From Tetracentron sinense (Eukaryota > Streptophyta > Magnoliopsida > Trochodendrales > Trochodendraceae), in NCBI GenBank assembly GCA_015143295.1, contig CM026563.1, positions 3,968,001 to 4,032,000 of the forward strand: 64,000 bases of DNA, given 5' to 3'. Both the position numbers and the translations under genes were made by a program. Shown piece by piece: positions 15,722 through 31,800 of this stretch. Position 1 is the first letter of the stretch. Every line of letters starts with the position of its first letter. The notes below the pieces were generated by a model. The model saw nothing but the letters and a program-made list of their open reading frames with translations, ran no database searches and was not told where the DNA came from.

Positions 15722-15913
15722 ATGGCAGGACCTTCAGGGATTGTTAAGACAGTTGGTCAACCGTCACGGCCCGTACATTTGACCTCTCAGGCGGTATGTG
15801 ACAATAACCTCCAAAAAACAATTGAAGCCCTCACTCCTAGTCAGTGTCTCGCTTGGGCTAAATACTATAAAATGGGATCCGTCTTAGACCTATCCATGGT
15901 TAAATCAGACCCG
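15722..15913 (+). pseudogene. Gypsy-type gag, N-terminal part
   Basis: The ATG at 15722 opens a frame beginning MAGPSGIVKTVGQ that stays open to the Copia insertion point, where it ends in SDP. The continuation is at 26943. Start chosen as the first ATG after the leader, just past CAGGTAG. Confidence 0.6.
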
Positions 15914-17272
15914 TGTTGCCCAGCTAATAGACCCTAGAGGGGGGGTGATTAGGGTCAATGGTAATTTAAAAATTAATCTAAGTGATTTATGCGGATTTTA
16001 AATGAGTTAACATAATTGCTACAAGTAATAATAAGATAAATAGTGAGAGAGAGAGATAAAGAATACCACACACAAGAATTGATATCGGGGTTCAGCAACT
16101 TGCCTACGTCCCCGCCTTTAAGCTTTCCGCTTTAAGGATTTTCCCACGATTCCACTAATTGTACTCTTTTTACTGGCAGAGAGCAAACCTATACAATCCT
16201 TTTCACAGGCTTAGGATAAAACATCTTCAAGAGAATGCCTCTCTTGGATACAAGAAGAACTCCTTCTTCACTGGTGCAAGAATCCTCATTTCTTGACTTA
16301 GCTTTTTACAAAGAGTTGTTGCATATTGAATCCGAAATTGAAAACTCCTTATTGAGCTAGATAAGAATGGAAAACAAATCTAATAATCTCTCAAAGATGA
16401 TTGGAATTGAATGCTCTAACATAGAGGGATTGGGATTTTAGGTTTTCAATAAAAAAAAAAACATAGTATTGATTGCTGGAACAGATTAAATAATCATTGA
16501 ATGAATGAATAGTGTAAGATTGGTATCTTTTTGTTCATAAATAAGCTCTATTTATAGTGGAGCAATCAATATGACTGTTGAAGGAATATTTAATGTGAAC
16601 TAGCCGTTATACTCAGTTCCCGCAAGCACTCGTCGACGAGTGAGTCTGGAAACTCACTGGAGACGTCGCCGAGTGAAAACAATAGCCAAATTTGGTTTAC
16701 TGTCATGTCACTCGTCGACGAGTCCCTTGCACTCGTCGACGATTTCTCTGAAAAATTACAAAGAACTCATCTTAGTGAGATCAAAAAGATGGGTATGATG
16801 CTATGGTCCATAGGCATTCATAAAATCATTATTTTAATCATTTTTAGGCCCTTAGAATGATATCCAAACTATTCTAAGTCTCCTAGGGTCTATCTAGCTA
16901 ACTTTGAGCAATCAAGTTCCAAGATCTTGAGGACTTTACATGGTCCTAGATACTCTTGACTTAAACACTAAACTCCTTTGAGAGTTGGTCTTCTTATCGA
17001 ACTCATGGAGCTTCAGTCCTGATGAGTCTTCATGATTTCGCTTTAGTCCTTAAAGCTTTTTCCTTGAATTGACTTATACTTGGCTTTTGACTTTGATTCT
17101 CTTGAGTGGTTGACCTTTTCAATACTTCATATCTTGAATGATGATCTTAATGCTCTTTTTCTTTGAAAGTATACACACTAAATGGAAACATTAGCATCAT
17201 ACAAATCATTCCATTATTGTGTTATCATCGAAACTATTACGGGTACTTAGAGTTGTAACCTTGAGGCTAACA
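15914..17272 (-). repeat. 3' LTR of the SIRE-type Copia
   Basis: 1359 bp. Read on the minus strand it holds a cluster of the palindrome ACTCGTCGACGAGT (16744-16628), then a TATA box CTATAAATAG (16557-16548). It matches the other LTR throughout except for a 342-bp surplus there. Confidence 0.92.
16548..16744 (-). promoter_or_regulatory. Copia LTR promoter region: palindrome cluster and TATA box
   Basis: Palindromes ACTCGTCGACGAGT at 16731 (imperfect), 16710 and 16628, with a degenerate copy near 16651-16674, then GCGGGAAC and CTATAAATAG at 16557-16548. The layout fits a U3 enhancer followed by a core promoter. Confidence 0.6.
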
Positions 17273-17286: not shown

Positions 17287-17887
17287 CATGATGACATAAT
17301 AATGTGAATGACTTAGGATTGAGCTCTCCCTCAATATATATATTCAATGAATTTTTGAAGTTAGCTCCCCCTAAACATATGCATTTCTATAAAAGGTTCA
17401 GATTTCATTCCTTATGCATATTTTAGATATTTCAATAGATAGATCATCATGGTTTAATACCAAGAGAAATTCCACAAAGGTAATTATCAATTTTTTATTT
17501 TTCATTTTTCAACACAAGTGATCAAGTCAAAATACTCAATGGAGGTTCTATGATAATAATTTAATCAATGTAAATTTTGAACCAAGAGAAGTTCCACAAA
17601 GAAGATAAATTAGAAAATTTCATTCAAGAAGGATTTCATAATTCATAAACAAGGTAACCAAACATCTATTTTGCACAATTTTCTCATAAACAACATTCAC
17701 ATGCAACAACATTCACATTTTTCTCCCCCTTGGCATCATCAAAAATGAAATGGAGAAAAGTATACTCAACTCACTATAAGAAAGGAAAAAGATCTCATAT
17801 ATATCAGAAAATGTAAGTACAAGTATGATTTTTTCAAAAAAAAAAAAACAGTCAGTAAAAAAATAGAAAACTAAAACAGGGTCTTCA
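17287..17887 (-). other. Copia 3' untranslated stretch
   Basis: AT-rich DNA between the extra ORF and the purine tract. The phrase GAACCAAGAGAA..TTCCACAAAG recurs near 17460 and 17583. No coding signal. Confidence 0.5.
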
Positions 17888-19838
17888 TCATATCTTCTGT
17901 CTCTTCCTTGAGCTGTTAGGCTTGGAAGAAGTGTTCTCGGAAGTTTCAGCCTTGGATAGGTCTTTGGAGGAGGAAGAGGTGTCACTAGAGATAACTTGCT
18001 TAGCTGGTTTTTCTTTAGGTTGCTCTTCTTTCTTCTCTTGTGGCTGCTCTGTTGTCTTCTCTTGTGGCTGCTCTGCTGATTGTGCTTGAGGGTGAGCTGG
18101 GATTTCCACATTAGTAGGGATAGGTACAAGTTCAAGCTTCTTTGTAATGCTCATCATCTCAATGGCTACTAGATGGAATTTTGAAGCCATTTCACTCATG
18201 ACAGGTGCCTGTGCATCAAACAATCCTGCCATCTGCTAAAGGCAGCTAGCTTGAACATTGACAGCCTTCCCAATGCTGATGACATCATCACTCAGCCTCT
18301 CACTCACCACAGAGGCATCCACTGCCTTCCTCTCTATCAGTGACAAGATAGAATCAACTCTGTTCTTGATTACTTCACCTGCAATCTCTATCTCCTCAAG
18401 TCTAGGCTCAATCTGCTCATCTCTTGACTTCAATTAAGCCTGAATACCATCCAACCTTGACTCTAGAGAAGACATGCTAGCTCTAGTCTCGGACTAGAGG
18501 CTCACAAGGCTCTCCCTCACTGAAGCCTGGAACTAAATATGGGATTCTCTCATCTCCCTATGAAATTGCTCCATGCTAGAAGCCATGGAAGCAATCTGCC
18601 CAACCAAAAGGCTCATCTGGTCCTCTGAAGCTGCTGCCCTGGAGGGTGGCTCAAATACAGGCACTGAATCCTCAAAGTGAGGTGAGTCCTATCTGTATGA
18701 AGACTCAGGATGCTCAACCTCAACTACCACATCTGGCCATATTGGCTCTGCCTCTGCCTCTGTATCAGGCTCAACATCTGACTCTGACTCTACTAGTAAC
18801 ATTGGCTCTGCTGCTGAAGAAGGATGAGGGACAGGAGAATAGGTAGGAGAATGAGAAGGTGGAGGAGCAAGAATAGGAAGAGGAGTTGAAGAGTCTAGAA
18901 TGGTAGAAGGAGCTAAGGTAGATGAAGGGATGGTTTGGGATTTTGGAACCCAAACATTACTGGAGTCAATCAATGTGTAGCCCATACGCATTATGGTTGC
19001 TTTTGAGTACACATCGGAGTTAGTCAAATTTCTTTTGTCTTGATACATAGACACAGGAACTTTGAAATTCTTGAAGATTCGAGTAAGAATAAGTCCAAAT
19101 GGCAATCTGCTAGAAGATTTCTTAGAAGCATCAAGTATGACATGCATGATGATGAAAGAAAGGTCAATGTGTTTGGTGGTTAAGATACACCAAATCAAGA
19201 AAACATCAAAGAAAGTTATGAAATCTCTACCACCACCTCTAGGAACAATATCATAGGTGATAATGTGGTGAGCAAGCCTAGCATCAAGGGTGAGATCCTT
19301 GAGCTTGGGAGGGATAGGCTTTGTGATGTCTTTGTTGACACACAAGATTTTTAAAGCCTCTATAACATCAAATCCCTCATGGGAAATCCACTGATTTGTG
19401 GTGTAATTTTGGAATTCCCCACTTGGTAATTTGAGTATAGATCTGAGTTCAGCAAGATTAAAAGAAATAAGCTTAGCATGAGCATAGGAAGTGAATTTTT
19501 GAGTAGATTTGTCAAAAGAGAGATGGGAATAAAACTGTTTAATCAGGTCAGGGTACATTGGTTCACGAAATTCAAGAAAATGATCCCATTTAAGGGCTTG
19601 AAATTTGGAGGCCAGAATATCTAGACCTATTTCCTTGAATAAGGCGAAGTCTGGAACCTTACCAAAAATTGGTGCTCTCTTGATGAAAATCCTGCAGATA
19701 GTTCTCTTCTGCCTTCTTGGACTGGAACAAACTTGGAGCTTCCTTCTGAGACGGCTCACCTGCCTTTTCCTTGCCTTTCTCTGCTGCAGATGGTTTCTTC
19801 TTTGCTTTCGGCATAGGGTTCTTCATATGCGGAGCCAT
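17888..19838 (-). pseudogene. Envelope-position ORF of the SIRE-type Copia
   Basis: An extra ORF between RNase H and the 3' LTR, same strand as pol. An ATG at 19838 opens MAPHMKNPMPKAKKK; the frame shifts near 19700 into a 356-codon frame with IKQFYSHLSFD, LDARLAHHIITYDIVPRGGG and FFDVFLIWCILTTKHIDLS, which match the domain annotated as putative plant transposon protein. A proline/acid-rich linker, a helical region (EEIEIAGEVIKNRVDS) and a repetitive EQPQEK tail follow, in the same frame but split by stops at 18689, about 18434 and 18233. About 650 codons if intact. I see no clear signal peptide or fusion peptide, so 'envelope' describes position only. Confidence 0.75.
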
Positions 19839-19999
19839 TGTCTTGACAAATTTTTAGAGAAATAGAGGTTTTGGGAATGAAATAGAATGATTTTGAGTCA
19901 ATTTTGAGGTGAGATGAATGGGGTTTGAGGATCTAGGAAAGAGAGGGAACTCGGATTTGAAAAGATGGAACAGTGAATGATTTGTGAAATTAGATTTTA

Positions 20000-20185
20000 A
20001 TTTATAGTCCCGCAGTCACTCATCAACGAGTAGGTTGGACTCGTCGCCGAGTGGCTAAGAAAAATCCAGATTTAATATCACTCGTCCCCGAGTAGTGAGG
20101 ACTCGTCGCCGAGTGGCTGAAATTAAGCAACTGTTTTATGCATTCGTCTATGAGTACAGCTTTGTACTGTGACTCGTCACCGAGT
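20000..20185 (-). promoter_or_regulatory. Putative internal promoter before the envelope-position ORF
   Basis: Six copies of a 14-bp near-palindrome related to ACTCGTCGCCGAGT lie at 20172, 20142, 20101, 20080, 20039 and 20018, followed on the minus strand by TGCGGGA and TATAAAT (20006-20000). The ORF ATG is 162 bp further on. The LTR has the same palindrome cluster, TGCGGGA and TATAAATA in the same order. Promoter function is inference. Confidence 0.5.
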
Positions 20186-20396: not shown

Positions 20397-20801
20397 TCAT
20401 TTAATGTCACATAATCTAAACATGCCTAATTCTCTTCTTAATGTACTGAATCTATAATAAGGGAGTGGTTTAGTAAATATGTCAGTAAGTTGGTTATTTG
20501 TTTCAACAAATTCCAACATTACATCCCCATTTTGAACATGATCTCTTATGAAATGATATCTTATATCAATGTATTTAGTTCTAGAATGTTGAATAGGATT
20601 TTTGGTCATACAAATTGCACTTGTATTATTACATTTAATTGAGATTTTATCATAAAATAATTTGAAATCTTCTAATTGTTGTTTCAAGTAAAGAGTTTGA
20701 GCACAACAACTCCCAGCTACTATATATTCAGCTTCAGCTGTAGATAGAGCCACTGAATTTTGTTTCTTACGAGACCTTGAAACTAGTCTAAGAAGTGACA
20801 T
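20397..20801 (-). pseudogene. Copia RNase H and C-terminus
   Basis: The RNase H core KKQNSVALSTAEAEYIVAG with its catalytic glutamate, SRTKYIDIRYHFIRDHV, and the usual end TDIFTKPL. It is shifted relative to the RT frame by a change near 20780. Ends at the stop at 20397. Confidence 0.9.
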
Positions 20802-20830
20802 GTGTCACTAGTGCTCTTCCGATCAACTTT

Positions 20831-22130
20831 TCATCTAGCAAAGTCAGCATCAGAATAACTAAAAATTTCTAATGATGTGTTCTTAGGGTACCAAAGTCCT
20901 AATTCAATTGTTCCAATTAGATATTTGAAAAAAACAATTATAGCAATCATATGTGATTCTTTAGGATTAACTTGAAATCTAGCACACATGCATACACTAA
21001 ACATGATATCAGGTCTACTAGCAATCAAGTATAACAAACTACCAATCATACCTCGATACTTAGTTTCTACCACACTTATGCCTTTTTCATTTTTATCCAA
21101 CTTGGTAGATGGACTCATGGGAATGTCAGCTTCCTTTGAGTTGTCCATTCCAAATTTCTTGAGAAGCTCTCTTGTGTACTTGGCTTGATTGATGAATGTG
21201 TCTTCCTTTGTTTGCTTGATTTGAAACCCGAGGAAGAAGTTCAATTCTCCCATCATGCTCATCTCGAACTCATCTTGCATGGTTTTAGCAAATTCTTGAC
21301 AAAGAGTTTCATTAGTAGATCCAAAAATAATATCATTAATATAAATTTGCACTATAAGCATATCATCATTTTTAGATTTTATAAACAATGTAGTATCAAT
21401 TTTTCCTCTAATGAAATTATTTTCAAGTAGGAAGCCACTTAGTCTATCATACCAAGCTCTTGGAGTTTGCTTTAAATCATATAGGATTTTAGTGAGTTTG
21501 AACACATGATTATGCATTTTATGATTTTCAAAACAAGAAGGTTGTTCAACATATACTTCCTCCGAAATAAATCTATTTAAAAAAGCATTTTTAACATCCA
21601 TTTGATATAGTTTAAAATCTTTAAAACTAGCATATGCAAGAAGCATTTTAATAGCTTCAAGTCTAGCAACATGGGTAAAAGTTTCATCATAATCAATTCC
21701 CTCTTTTTGGGTGTATCCTTGAGCTACTAGTCTAGCTTTGTTTTTAATGATGTTTCCACTTTCATCCTTTTTATTTTTAAAAATCCACTTAGTACCAATT
21801 ATAGATTTACATTTAGGTCTAAGTACTAAGTCTCATACTTGGTTTCTTTCAAATTGATTAAGTTCCTCTTGCATAACAATTCCTCAAGATTTATCATTAA
21901 TTGCTTCAAGTACATTCTTAGGTTCAATTTGAGAGAGGAATTCAAGGTTATTACAAATATTTCTTCTTGTTCTTACACCTTGTTCCATATTTCTAATAAT
22001 GAGATTTTTAGGATGGTCTTTTATTAATCTCCATGTCTTAGGAAGTTGAGTTTCATTTTCTTCTTCATTTTCATCTAAGTTTTCAACCTCTAAGGTTTTG
22101 TCAACATCATTAATTATCTTGATTTTCATT
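20831..22130 (-). pseudogene. Copia reverse transcriptase, degraded
   Basis: RT core with [34 protein letters not shown] and the active site YINDIIFG, where the first aspartate of YVDD has become asparagine (GAT to AAT). [29 protein letters not shown] and YSDADF follow. The N-terminal segment (21884-22129) is in the same frame but separated by a stop. The frame ends with TGA at 20831 and shifts before RNase H. Confidence 0.9.
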
Positions 22131-25115: not shown

Positions 25116-25223
25116 TGGAGGACGGGTGGTCGATTAGCCCTCTCCTAAGGTAGTAGGAAAAAATTTTGTCATTTAAAATCGTTAACTCTAAGATGATTAA
25201 ATCTGAATAGCTAGAGTACCAAA

Positions 25224-25234
25224 CTTTGATACCA
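25224..25234 (-). other. Primer binding site of the SIRE-type Copia
   Basis: Minus-strand TGGTATCAAAG lies two bases past the LTR end, a one-change variant of the initiator tRNA-Met primer site. Confidence 0.8.
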
Positions 25235-25236
25235 AT

Positions 25237-26937
25237 TGTTGCACAGCAAATGAACCCTAGAGGGGGGTGATTAGGGTCAATGGTAATTTAAAAATTAATC
25301 TAAGTGATTTATGCGGAATTTAAGTGAGTTAACACAATTGCTACAACCAATAACAAGATAAATAGTGAGAGGGTGTGATAAGGAATACCACACACAAGAA
25401 TTGATATCGGGGTTCAGCAACTTGCCTACGTCCCCGCCTTTAAGCTTCCCGCCTTAAGGATTTTCCCACGATCCCACTAATCATACTCTTCTTTACGGGT
25501 AGAGAGCAAACCTATACAATCATTTTCACAGGCTCAGGATAAAACATCTTCAAGAGAATGCCTCTCCTGGATACAAGAAGAACTTCTTCACTAGTGCAAG
25601 AATCCTCAATTCTTGACTTAGCTTTTTACAAAGAGTTATTACATATTGAATCCGAAATTGAAAACTGCTTACTAAGCTAGATAAGAATGGAAAACAAATC
25701 TAATAATCTCTCAAAGATGATTGGAATTGAATGCTCTAACACAAAGGGATTGGGATTCTAGGTTTTCAATGAAAAATAGAGTATTGATTGCTGGAACTGA
25801 TTGAATAATCAATGAATGAATGAATAGTGTAAGATTGGTATCTTTTTGTTCATAAATAAGCTCTATTTATAGTTGAACAATCAATATGACCGTTGTAGGA
25901 ATATTTAATATGAACTAGCCGTTGAAAACTAGCCGTTATACTCAGTTCCCGCAAGCACTAGTCGACGAGTGGTCTGGAAACTCACTAGAGTCATCGCCGA
26001 GTGAAAACAGCAGTCAAATTTGGTTTACTGTCATGCCACTCATTGATGAGTCCCTTGCACTTGTCGACGAGTTCTCTGAAAAATTACAGAGAACTCATCT
26101 TAGTGAGATCAAAAAGATGGGTATGATGCTATGGTCCATAGGCATTCATAAAATCATTATTTTAATCATTTTTAGGCCCCCAGAATGATATCCAAACTAT
26201 TCTAAGTCTCCTAGGGTCTATCTAGGTAACTTGGAGCAATCAAGTTCCAAGATCTTGAGGACTTTACATGGTCCTAGATACTCTTGACTTAAACACTAAA
26301 CTCCTTTGAGAGTTGGTCTTCTTATGGAACTCATGGAGCTTCAATCTTGATGAATCTTCATGATTTGACTTTAGTCCTAAGAGAATCAAAGTCAAAAGTT
26401 AAGTATAAGTCAATTCAAGGAAAAAGCTTTAAGGACTAAAGTCAAATCATGAAGACTCATCAAGACTGAAGCTCCATGGGTTCCATAAGAAGACCAACTC
26501 TCAAAGGAGTTTAGTGTTTAAGTCAAGAGTATCTAGGACCATGTAAAGTCCTCAAGATCTTGGAACTTGATTGCTCCAAGTTACCTAGATAGACCCTAGG
26601 AGACTTAGAATAATTTGGATATTATTCTGAGGGCCTAAAAATGATTAAAATAATGATTTTATGAATGCCTATGGACCATAGCCTCATACCCATCTTTTTG
26701 ATCTCACTAAGATGAGTTCTCTGTAATTTTTCAGAGAACTCGTCGACGAGTGGCATGCTTTGATTCTCTTGAGTGGTTGACCTTTTCAATACTTCATATC
26801 TTAAATGATGATCTTAATACTCTTTTTCTCTAAAAGTACACACTAAATGGAAACATTAGCATCATAAAGATCATTCCATTATTATGTTATTCTCGAAACT
26901 ATTAAGGGTATTTAGAGTTGTAACCTTGAGGCTAACA
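25237..26937 (-). repeat. 5' LTR of the SIRE-type Copia with internal inverted duplication
   Basis: 1701 bp, against 1359 bp for its partner. The surplus is an inverted copy of LTR sequence (26379-26752) that forms a long hairpin with 26058-26378. Palindromes lie near 25957, 26038, 26058 and 26739, and a TATA box is at about 25860-25870. Confidence 0.9.
26058..26752. repeat. Long inverted repeat within the Copia 5' LTR
   Basis: Arms 26058-26378 and 26432-26752, about 321 bp each and nearly identical, separated by a 53-base loop. The right arm is the reverse complement of the left, and normal LTR order resumes at about 26758 (TTTGATTCTCTTGAG). The other LTR lacks it. Confidence 0.9.
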
Positions 26938-26942
26938 ACTCG

Positions 26943-28835: not shown

Positions 28836-31800
28836 CTGCAGATCCACAATTTGTTTAGATCAAAATCACAGAAATCTGGGCTCAGACTGTAAGTTCAATG
28901 AGCCAAGACAAATGAAAAACGCTGATTACACCAGAAAGAAGGTAAAAATAAAAAATAGAAAGGATAAAGGGAAAAAGAAAAAAGAAAAAAGTCTTAGAAA
29001 ACGGAAGTTGAAGGGGATAGCCCACACAAAAATGGTAGACATGGCTGAGTTCTAACTCAACTTGTAATGTTTAAAAGATTGGTTTAAAATATTAAGAATG
29101 AAATACAATGAGGATAAGGCGGCTCATGATTAACTAGGATCCCAGCATCTCACCTGAACTGCAACACTGCTTTGGAGTATCCTCTGTGGACTCTGGAGAC
29201 GTGGAAGCTGATCCCCTTCGGAGCTGCAGGGCTCATCAAGTTCATTCCGTAGCGCAGCCGTCCAAGTTTCAATCATCCCAATGGCATTTTCTACTGGCGA
29301 GAACTCAAGAGATTCAGATTTTATTACCAAGAGTCGATTCACCAGGGCAGGGAATGAGCCCTCAGTCTGAAGTACAGTACGCCGCATCCACTGGTCTTCC
29401 AATCCACCTTGTGTCTTACCACTTTTGGTAAATGGGGTGTCAAACAAGAAGCGATCAAAGACACGTGCGTGCATTCTTCCAGTGGAAAGAGAGATCCTCT
29501 CTATTCTACTGCAAAGATTTTCATCTTCCATGACAGGATCCACCGCAATTATCTGCAGATAGCAAACTCCAGGCTGCAACTCATCTGCTTTGACTTGTCT
29601 AGAATCTGGAATTATGTGTAGGGTATGATTCCCATCCATCCTGCACTCATATATATGACTCAGCTTCTCCATTATGTCACCTAAGCTTACATCACAGGGC
29701 TCTCGATATACATATTCCTTTCTATCCAGCTTCCCAAATCGGTCTCCATAGAATCCCACTCGATAGTATGTTGCATCAGTGACTGGTATTGGGATTGATT
29801 CATAGATGTTGGTCAGCAATGTGTAGCATTTCGCAAGCTGCCCAAATGCCCTCCGGCTTTTATAAACTGGAATTATGAGCTCCAGAATGCTTGCACAGAA
29901 ATGATGGAGCTCAGCTTGAGAGAAAAGCTTATTTGCAAGCTGGAGGTATTTCACAGCAGAATCAACTGTCAATTTCGATGCACCGTATCCCTCTACCTCG
30001 GCAGCAGAAGCCTCAGCAGTAATCTCACTGCTGACCACGGGGCATATTTTACGTAAAGCAGCCACATGATCTCTGCTCCACACAGCATCATTTCTTCCAA
30101 CAAGAGCCTGCATGCATGTATGTTATCATCAGTCTGTAATTTTGTGGGAAATATTTGTGCTCCATTGTCTATTATATAACAAAGAAGCTCCTTAAAATAA
30201 GTATATGAATAAATGCCGAATTGAGGATACCATGAACTATAACTAGGATGGTCTTGTACTATTTTTCCCTTCTTATTTATAGGTAACTTTGATAGCACTT
30301 ATTTGACTGAAATCATAGCTTTTAATAGAGTGCAATGGCGAAACAGAATCCCCAAATATGTTGGGATAAGCTACTGATGATGATGACACGTAAACTATAT
30401 ATATACTGGTACTACCTCATATATATGGGATATATTCTGTCTTTCTACATTTACTCGTATTGACAAATATCCGTATATAGATTCTGTCCTACATGTGCTC
30501 TAATCGACAAATATCTACAAAATAACATGCTGCCCTGGGACCTGATCAGCACAATGATTTCTAGTGAACCAGGCATTGAAGGCATTGGGATGTGTCCATG
30601 TGCATGGTTTTACCATGTCCCTGTATAGAAAAAGGGGACTCGGTAAGATTAGATGAGAACCAAACAAAGATCGCTTTTTGTATGGATGCTCCTGAGTATT
30701 TACATATATCTATTGGCCTTCACTGGTGCTACACAACTATTCCTCACAGCATTATGTCCCTTAAAATATCAAACTGTACGGAAGTGTTGGCATAATGGGT
30801 TTGTCAAAGTCCCAAACCACGTATTCAAATCTAACATGCGTCGATATGTAAGTTAACAAATGTTGGTCATTACAAACATCCATAACAGTAGACTATTCAC
30901 CTGCATTACGACACCAGCAACAGCAACAGCACATTGTGCTGCTTCAGCCCAAGATTGCATCTCCTGATGTGCATCACACAAATGAAGTAACCAAATTATG
31001 TGAAGATTCGGGACAGAGGCATATGCCATTGCGAGTTTATAAAAGCTCTCTGTAGCTGCATATCTATCCAGAGTCATCACAGAAGCCTGCAAGATGAGAA
31101 TGCAGTTGATGTCGGCATATTCATATAATAGCTTCAATTTTCTGCAAGAGATTTAAAGGTCTTCTAAAGAATGTTAGAAGTTACCAAAAGTGCATGTTCC
31201 AGGCTAGCATCAAGGGCTAGAAGAAGACTATCAGACAGATATTTCACCTCTGACCAGGACCATCGGTTCTCTGACACAACTTCTGGAATTGCCACAAGAG
31301 CATTCTCAGGAAGTACACACTCTTTTAATAATTCGAAGCTCCTATTTTCATCAGCCATTTCCTCCAAAGACTTCCTAAGACGCCGAGCTTCACTGCTCTC
31401 TTGGAGAGTTCCATCGAACTTCATCTGAGTTAATTGTACATCAGACATCAGCTCCGACAAGGTAATCGTCAGCATGACCCTCAACCTTGTTGTTTGCAAA
31501 AGGTAATAGAATGAACTCTGCCAAAGTGAACATCAACATTTTATGTCAGTAATTGAGATCAGCCAGTGTACTGAATTTTACAGACCTCAAGAGCCTACCC
31601 TCACGAGTATCTGTAGCCCAATAACTGCCCTTTTTCTGATATTATCATTCCGAAAAACTGCAAGCCGAAGAAGATGGAAAGCAACTTGCTTTAAGAAATG
31701 GTCATTCTCCCTCGACATCAGTGTAGCTCCATGAAGATTGAAGACACGGTTGAATACAGGAAACAAAGCATTCCAAAAATCCAGTGGTTGACTTCGTGAG

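Follow-up and report, generated by a model that had tools for sequence, protein, structure and literature searches.

The envelope-position gene of a Ty1/copia element in Tetracentron sinense probably has a promoter of its own, since it is preceded by a cluster of palindromic boxes and a TATA box like those of the element's LTRs, and most of the relatives that we sampled retain them. We analyzed a 64,000-nt window of this genome (GCA_015143295.1, contig CM026563.1, 3,968,001-4,032,000), in which positions 20185-19839 of the minus strand quite probably serve the envelope-position gene as internal promoter and 5' leader and share their ancestry with the LTR promoter; this is a prediction from sequence. 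How the extra gene is expressed in plant envelope-bearing copia elements was left open in 2010 (PMC2829016). The TATA box at fixed spacing, the leader, and the cluster together predict that transcription starts at one site, about 31 bp downstream of the TATA, a prediction that is precise and cheap to test.

The element and its internal box cluster

The element lies on the minus strand, with the following main features:

15914..17272, minus strand: 3' LTR, starting with TGTTAGCC and ending with GGGCAACA; ends set by eye
25237..26937, minus strand: 5' LTR, limits set by eye, with an inverted LTR stretch inside at about 26386-26755
20397..21832, minus strand: end of pol, RVT_2 followed by an RNase H-like open stretch (by eye)
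20834-21646, minus strand: RVT_2, Pfam domain match
17723..17730 and 17365-17372, minus strand: two exact matches to the polypurine octamer AGGGGGAG
19662..19838, minus strand: first part of the envelope-position ORF (MAPHMKN...), 59 codons up to an in-frame stop
18689..19822, minus strand: main open stretch of the envelope-position ORF, matching PF20167 (Transposase_32, E 3.9e-20 for 18692-19759)

Direct repeat pieces common to the two LTRs are 87-94% identical. The gag and reverse transcriptase are of the copia type (Retrotran_gag_2, 2.6e-23; RVT_2, 3.5e-42), and two marks of Sireviruses are present: multiple AGGGGGAG tracts before the 3' LTR, here in two exact copies, and a polyC integrase signal near the LTR 3' ends (ACCCCCC at 25262 and ACCCCCCC at 15939). 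By its gag and RT and by the polypurine and polyC marks, we would class the element as an envelope-containing Sirevirus. The polypurine stretch directly at the LTR, ATGGAGAG, has diverged from AGGGGGAG, and the PBS position (25223-25231) reads TATCAAAGT, two transitions away from the Sirevirus 9-bp PBS, TATCAGAGC.

The last open pol stretch ends at 20397, 211 bp ahead of the box cluster, and in the window copy the distance from the end of pol to the start of the envelope-position ORF is 558 bp. This copy of the ORF is broken: the ATG frame is open for 59 codons only, and the long open stretch sits in another frame.

Three further observations concern the element and its surroundings. The inverted LTR stretch at 26386-26755 within the 5' LTR has one perfect box (26738). 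By eye, there is a possible target site duplication on the minus strand, CGAGT at 26938-26942 and CGGGT at 15909-15913, with one mismatch. An ORF at 29130-30113 with DHR-2 lobes A and B encodes a DOCK-type exchange factor and is probably a host gene exon.

The predicted promoter and leader contain these parts:

20018..20185, minus strand: internal cluster of six 14-bp boxes, ACTCG-N4-CGAGT (20018-31, 20039-52, 20080-93, 20101-14, 20142-55, 20172-85)
20007..20017, minus strand: 11-bp tail after the last box, GACTGCGGGAC, resembling the tail of the last LTR box
20000..20006, minus strand: TATAAAT, proposed internal TATA box, 25 bp from the start of the last box
19968..19975, minus strand: CACTGTTC, proposed transcription start region, 31 bp after the TATA start
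19839..19975, minus strand: proposed 5' leader, with 7 G in 137 nt; its first ATG is the ORF start

In plus-strand order, the six boxes start 21, 41, 21, 41, and 30 bp apart, and their arms (20018, 20039, 20080, 20101, 20142, and 20172) score 9, 10, 10, 10, 8, and 10 of 10; the centers are often asymmetric, making these near-palindromes. Read along the minus strand, the boxes are followed by TGCGGGA, TATAAAT, and the start of the ORF, whose ATG (19838) lies 162 bp from the last TATA base and 168 bp from the first. The same order of boxes, motif, and TATA occurs in both LTRs. An earlier note on this DNA had described both the six near-palindromes with TGCGGGA and TATAAAT 162 bp before the ATG and the shared order in the LTRs; the coordinates confirm both (in the LTRs, TGCGGGA at 16624 and 25953, TATAAAT at 16556 and 25871), and shuffles and simulations bear out the former.

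With up to two mismatches, ACTCGTCNNCGAGT has 27 matches in the window, while 100 shuffles averaged 1.07 and never exceeded 4; these counts take both strands, so that a palindromic site may count twice, and the shuffles were counted likewise. Scored by their arms (at least 8 of 10), there are 31 boxes in the window, compared to a mean of 7.7 and a maximum of 16 in 30 simulations, and the simulated windows never held more than two boxes per 170 bp. On the minus strand, TGCGGGA occurs three times in the 64 kb, at 20014, 16624, and 25953, that is, in the cluster and the two LTRs only; TATAAAT occurs 15 times in the window and three times inside the element (20006, 16556, and 25871). The shuffles and simulations, together with the recurrence in relatives described below, rule out a chance origin of the box-TATA order.

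TATA spacing and leader in relatives from the same genome

To pick relatives independently of their boxes, we searched with the ORF protein, which gave at least 120 matches at no fewer than 114 places, the window included. From 93 out of 113 places we took a linker of 801 bases, mostly upstream of the ORF start. Loss of the cluster from ORF-bearing relatives, which the earlier note had raised as evidence against an internal promoter, is not what we saw: when arms must score 8 of 10 or better, 83 of the 93 linkers hold three boxes or more, 85 hold one or more, and eight hold none, although these counts are not independent events because the copies share ancestry. The mean is 4.96 boxes per linker, compared to 0.14 in a first-order Markov resample of each.

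The distance to the TATA is uniform in most linkers. Counting downstream from where the last box starts, TATAWAW begins at exactly 25 bp in 71 of the 93, at 24 bp in two, at 29 bp in three, and at 46 bp in one; the other 16 have none within 80 bp, and eight of these lack boxes. Within the 83 linkers with at least three boxes, 69 have TATAWAW at 25 bp, and outside offsets 20-35 it occurs 30 times in about 63,900 bp. Twelve of the 85 box-bearing linkers have no TATAWAW at 24-25 bp (three at 29, one at 46, eight with none within 80 bp); four of these exceptions have four or five boxes (L041, L052, L054, L085) and the others six (L044, L056, L060, L077, L089, L097, L110, L118). Six-box linkers fall into two spacing classes, 30-41-21-41-21 (23 linkers, including the window) and 21-50-21-42-21 (24 linkers), with partial forms as well, and both classes mostly retain the TATA at 25 bp.

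For each of the eight box-less linkers we looked at the two longest blastn alignments with other linkers, and none of these extends into a box cluster. Four of them match the foreign upstream sequence of L036, the match of L079 begins just before the TATA, L107 and L119 match over about 50 bp only, and L091 matches nothing. One foreign sequence stands upstream of the ORF in L036, L050, L053, L076, and L104, ending at varied distances, perhaps because one mobile element has inserted near the ORF start more than once.

Downstream of the TATA, we examined 75 linkers with a TATA at 24-29 bp and, for the leader itself, the 61 of those with an ATGRCNCC start; the window is in both sets. Of the 75 linkers, 59 have the motif CAYTRTTC 22-43 bp downstream of the TATA start, and in 31 of these the distance is 30-32 bp; elsewhere the motif occurs twice in 55,575 bp. 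The G content of the 75 linkers, in 20-nt bins, is 0.12-0.18 upstream of the cluster and 0.20-0.29 across it, falls to 0.005 in the first 20 nt from the TATA, stays at or below 0.057 to +120, and is 0.23 in the first 20 nt from the ATG. The G deficit in one copy alone is not distinctive, because the ORF of the window copy itself contains a stretch with lower G than its leader.

The leaders are also poor in start codons. From TATA+31 onward, the 61 leaders contain seven ATGs in 6,649 nt, where 100 dinucleotide shuffles gave 22.4, with a minimum of 12; 54 of the 61 have no ATG at all. Control stretches gave 110 ATGs against 80.6 between the first box and the TATA, and 232 against 250.9 in the 150 bp before the first box; on the opposite strand of the leaders, CAT is found 236 times compared to 203 when shuffled. 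The TATA-to-ATG stretch thus looks, as expected, like a 5' leader, with a sense strand nearly devoid of G and ATG and with few acceptor-like sites.

Expression of the ORF could instead depend on an LTR-initiated RNA that is spliced, or on readthrough of pol, with the boxes doing something else, such as acting as an enhancer for the LTR promoters. Both modes are named in PMC2829016, which cites predicted splicing for the extra genes of BAGY2 and Athila and stop-codon readthrough as the source of the SIRE1 envelope-like protein. The window leader does contain a good acceptor-like site, TTCCCTCTCTTTCCTAG, and in 25 of the 61 leaders no in-frame stop separates the TATA from the ATG. In the set as a whole, however, acceptor-like YAG sites are found in 8 of 61 leaders, compared to 18.3 when shuffled, 31 of 61 have no AG, and 36 of 61 carry an in-frame stop ahead of the ATG; the few acceptor-like sites argue against splicing into the leader and the stops against readthrough. 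Neither mode requires a TATA at fixed spacing or a loss of G that begins at the TATA. We consider expression by splicing or readthrough unlikely.

Boxes in LTRs and conservation of the internal cluster

If the internal promoter is related to the one in the LTR, the two should share parts, and the LTRs of the window element hold the following:

16628..16744, minus strand: 3' LTR boxes, starting at 16628, 16661, 16710, and 16731
25957..26072, minus strand: 5' LTR boxes, starting at 25957, 25989, 26038, and 26059
16549..16556, minus strand: TATAAATA of the 3' LTR
25864..25871, minus strand: TATAAATA of the 5' LTR

The sequence GCGGGAAC is located at 16623 and 25952, once per LTR. For comparison we used six LTRs, two from the window element and four from relatives. 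Palindromic boxes lie upstream of the LTR TATA in all of these, that is, in both window LTRs and in the 3' LTRs of L009, L012, L017, and L020; these four are all of the examined loci that have a long 3' LTR match, and each has boxes in the linker too, so that the cluster recurs at both places in relatives, as the earlier note had asked. The LTR boxes are spaced 21-50-32 or similarly, and CAYTRTTC follows 41-51 bp after the TATA in five of the six LTRs.

The order is common to LTR and linker but the spacing is not: the TATA is 25 bp from the start of the last box internally and 85-101 bp from it in the six LTRs; the gap from tail to TATA is 60-76 bp longer in the LTR. The proposal in the earlier note of a second, internal promoter related to that of the LTR gains support from the fixed spacing, the conservation, the leader, and the shared tail; its claim of an exact copy of the LTR layout fails because the box-to-TATA distance differs.

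The 11-bp tails provide a further link. Tails of the LTR and of 68 linkers match at 5.57 of 11 positions. The tails of other linker boxes gave 1.52-3.00, a range whose upper value comes from a single linker. Shuffled tails got no higher than 3.42, and 500 common permutations of the columns all fell short of 5.57. Boxes, tail, TATA, and start motif stand in identical order in LTR and linker, and a common origin of the two promoters, rather than convergence, is likely.

We also considered GCGGGA as an essential third part of the promoter and rejected it: only 6 of 75 linkers have it in the 11-bp tail, and a looser tail motif is common instead. The tail GCGGGAAA of some LTRs is what we took to be a candidate E2F-type site, a reading that we dropped since GCGGGA is absent from most linkers.

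To compare the parts of the linker, we aligned all 93 with the window as guide, unconditioned on boxes, and scored columns with letters in at least 60%. Mean column identity, which gives a contrast among kin copies and not a count of events and in which the aligner may favor boxes, is 0.805 in box arms, 0.684 in box centers, and 0.529 between boxes. It is 0.589 in the upstream linker, 0.583 in the 11-bp tail, 0.816 in the TATA, 0.670 from TATA+7 to +25, 0.706 from +25 to +50, 0.617 in the remaining leader, and 0.652 at the ORF start. The seven TATA columns rank only 26th among 532 seven-column windows because the W positions vary; the T, A, T, A, and last A columns reach 0.85-0.98, with neighbors at 0.45-0.60. 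The top seven-column stretch (0.924) is not the TATA but lies in the leader at TATA+45 (window positions about 19955-19961), and the seven-column window at TATA+31 is also among the best conserved.

These figures bear on the idea that the boxes act not as factor sites but as DNA or RNA that forms hairpins or is rich in CpG, being targets or sources of small RNA and methylation or places of template switching. The internal cluster has a CpG o/e of 1.23 and the 3' LTR cluster one of 1.49, compared to 0.17 in the RT part, and the LTR palindrome region of maize Sireviruses is described as a small-RNA hotspot (PMC5311732, PMC10760457). Yet the outer ACT/AGT letters of the boxes, which lie outside the CpGs, are conserved too (column identity 0.71-1.0), and such a role predicts neither a TATA at a fixed 25 bp nor a leader. 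As a replacement for factor binding we find it quite improbable, but it can hold alongside a promoter role. That the cluster is a passive relic of an old LTR or repeat, kept through recent common ancestry, would fit the tail motif common to LTR and linker but is the least probable reading of all, given arms and TATA at 0.805 and 0.816 against spacers at 0.529 in one alignment and two spacing classes that both mostly retain the TATA at 25 bp.

The same boxes are also found outside this family. The exact 14-mer ACTCGTCGCCGAGT occurs 133 times forward and 132 times in reverse in the 1.16 Gb genome, compared to 1 and 0 for a backward control. Among about 100 listed places we examined 28 loci with ACTCGTCGCCGAGT, the first 8 plus 20 that we picked. 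By the context of the box region, 16 are pol/ORF linkers, 11 share LTR-like sequence with L016 (L001, L002, L013, L015, L016, L018, L022, L023, L025, L026, and L028), and one, L021, is neither.

Ty3/gypsy pol pieces (RVT_1, RT_RNaseH, and SH3_Tf2-1) are present in L023, and we then sought them in all 28 loci. Seven of the 11 LTR-like loci have such pieces nearby on the strand of the boxes: in L016, L022, and L023 they end about 0.7-0.8 kb before the boxes, as for a 3' LTR; in L015, L025, and L028 an RT lies about 3.5-3.9 kb after the boxes, as for a 5' LTR; and L013, which looks nested, has them on both sides. None were found in L001 and L002 (3 kb each), L018, or L026. L016 further contains RT and RNase H pieces that lie on the other strand relative to its boxes. 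The family is likely a chromovirus, judging from a sole Chromo match, in L016, that falls just under the Pfam cut-off.

All 11 LTR-like loci have the 21-bp box spacing, with a TATAWAW that lies 79-192 bp beyond where the last box starts. Within 200 bp, all 11 have TATAWAW on the downstream side, and three of the 11 have it upstream of the first box. The box sits upstream of a TATA in both Ty1/copia and Ty3/gypsy elements, and so it is used by two superfamilies in one genome. Shared boxes in Ty3/gypsy LTRs point to one host factor serving unrelated elements.

Proposed mechanism and known systems

We propose that a host DNA-binding factor, probably a dimer, would bind the boxes, which are spaced at about two, three, or four turns of the helix (21, 30, and 41 bp). 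The TATA, 11 bp past the last box, would direct RNA polymerase II to a start about 31 bp downstream, giving a short, separate mRNA whose leader is poor in G and has no ATG ahead of the ORF, and which, in intact copies, would be translated from the MAP... start. If this is true, such elements run two promoters on one kind of site.

A bolder extension concerns the product of the gene. The ORF protein might be a nuclear regulator rather than an envelope, made from its own promoter and binding the boxes of linker and LTR so as to activate the element or counter its silencing, with Ty3/gypsy elements of the same genome having acquired the boxes to exploit the ORF protein or the same host factor; we regard this as very doubtful. 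A search of 1102 candidates, drawn from a collection perhaps poor in plants, gave no match to the ORF protein at E 0.001, and no solved structure matched it up to E 1. Two basic stretches, PKAKKKPS near the ORF start (19662-19838) and SSRKRQKI at the end of the last open piece (17888-18235), resemble nuclear localization signals, by eye only.

The earlier note knew of no description of this arrangement, but one was published in 2010: Bousios et al. reported palindromic boxes upstream of the LTR TATA in 13 Sireviruses, nine of which have ENV, with box clusters ahead of the ENV-like gene (PMC2829016). In that account the box regions are CpG islands, with the LTR TATA on average 37 bp past the island, and an internal promoter is favored although none was conclusively identified. 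The window element resembles these RM boxes in having LTR boxes upstream of the TATA and a second CpG-rich cluster before the ENV-like gene (PMC2829016). Where the RM-box criterion is at least eight copies in 3' LTR and linker, we count six internal and four 3' LTR boxes with arms of at least 8 of 10. A CGG-CCG signature is given for 12 of the 13 published elements, Tnd-1 being without it (PMC2829016); the core here, ACTCG-N4-CGAGT, lacks it, unlike most RM boxes, and we file it as a variant.

Like soybean SIRE1, the window element is a Sirevirus with an envelope-like ORF after pol. In SIRE1 a single stop codon separates pol from the ORF (PMC2829016), whereas here the distance is 558 bp. Internal promoters and stop suppression are both listed among modes of ENV expression (PMC3414828), and extra ORFs in plant elements are touched on in PMC7264820, PMC11963269, and PMC11728184. 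The extra ORF of sunflower Athila also has partial similarity to PF20167 (PMC11728184). Athila is a Ty3/gypsy element, in contrast to the copia-type pol (RVT_2) of the window element. Maize Grande is likewise Ty3/gypsy. Its gene23 also lies between pol and the 3' LTR with its own upstream promoter, but is antisense to gag-pol, and a palindrome cluster is not mentioned in the portion of that report available to us (PMC7264820).

Among the titles and abstract openings searched, which covered few subscription journals and preprints, there was no report of a TATA box or transcript start for a Sirevirus ENV gene. The arrangement is therefore known and the box sequence a new variant, while the promoter anatomy (fixed TATA, start motif, and leader) is new as far as our searches go; what we add to the available account of 2010 (PMC2829016) is the TATA at fixed spacing and the leader before the ORF.
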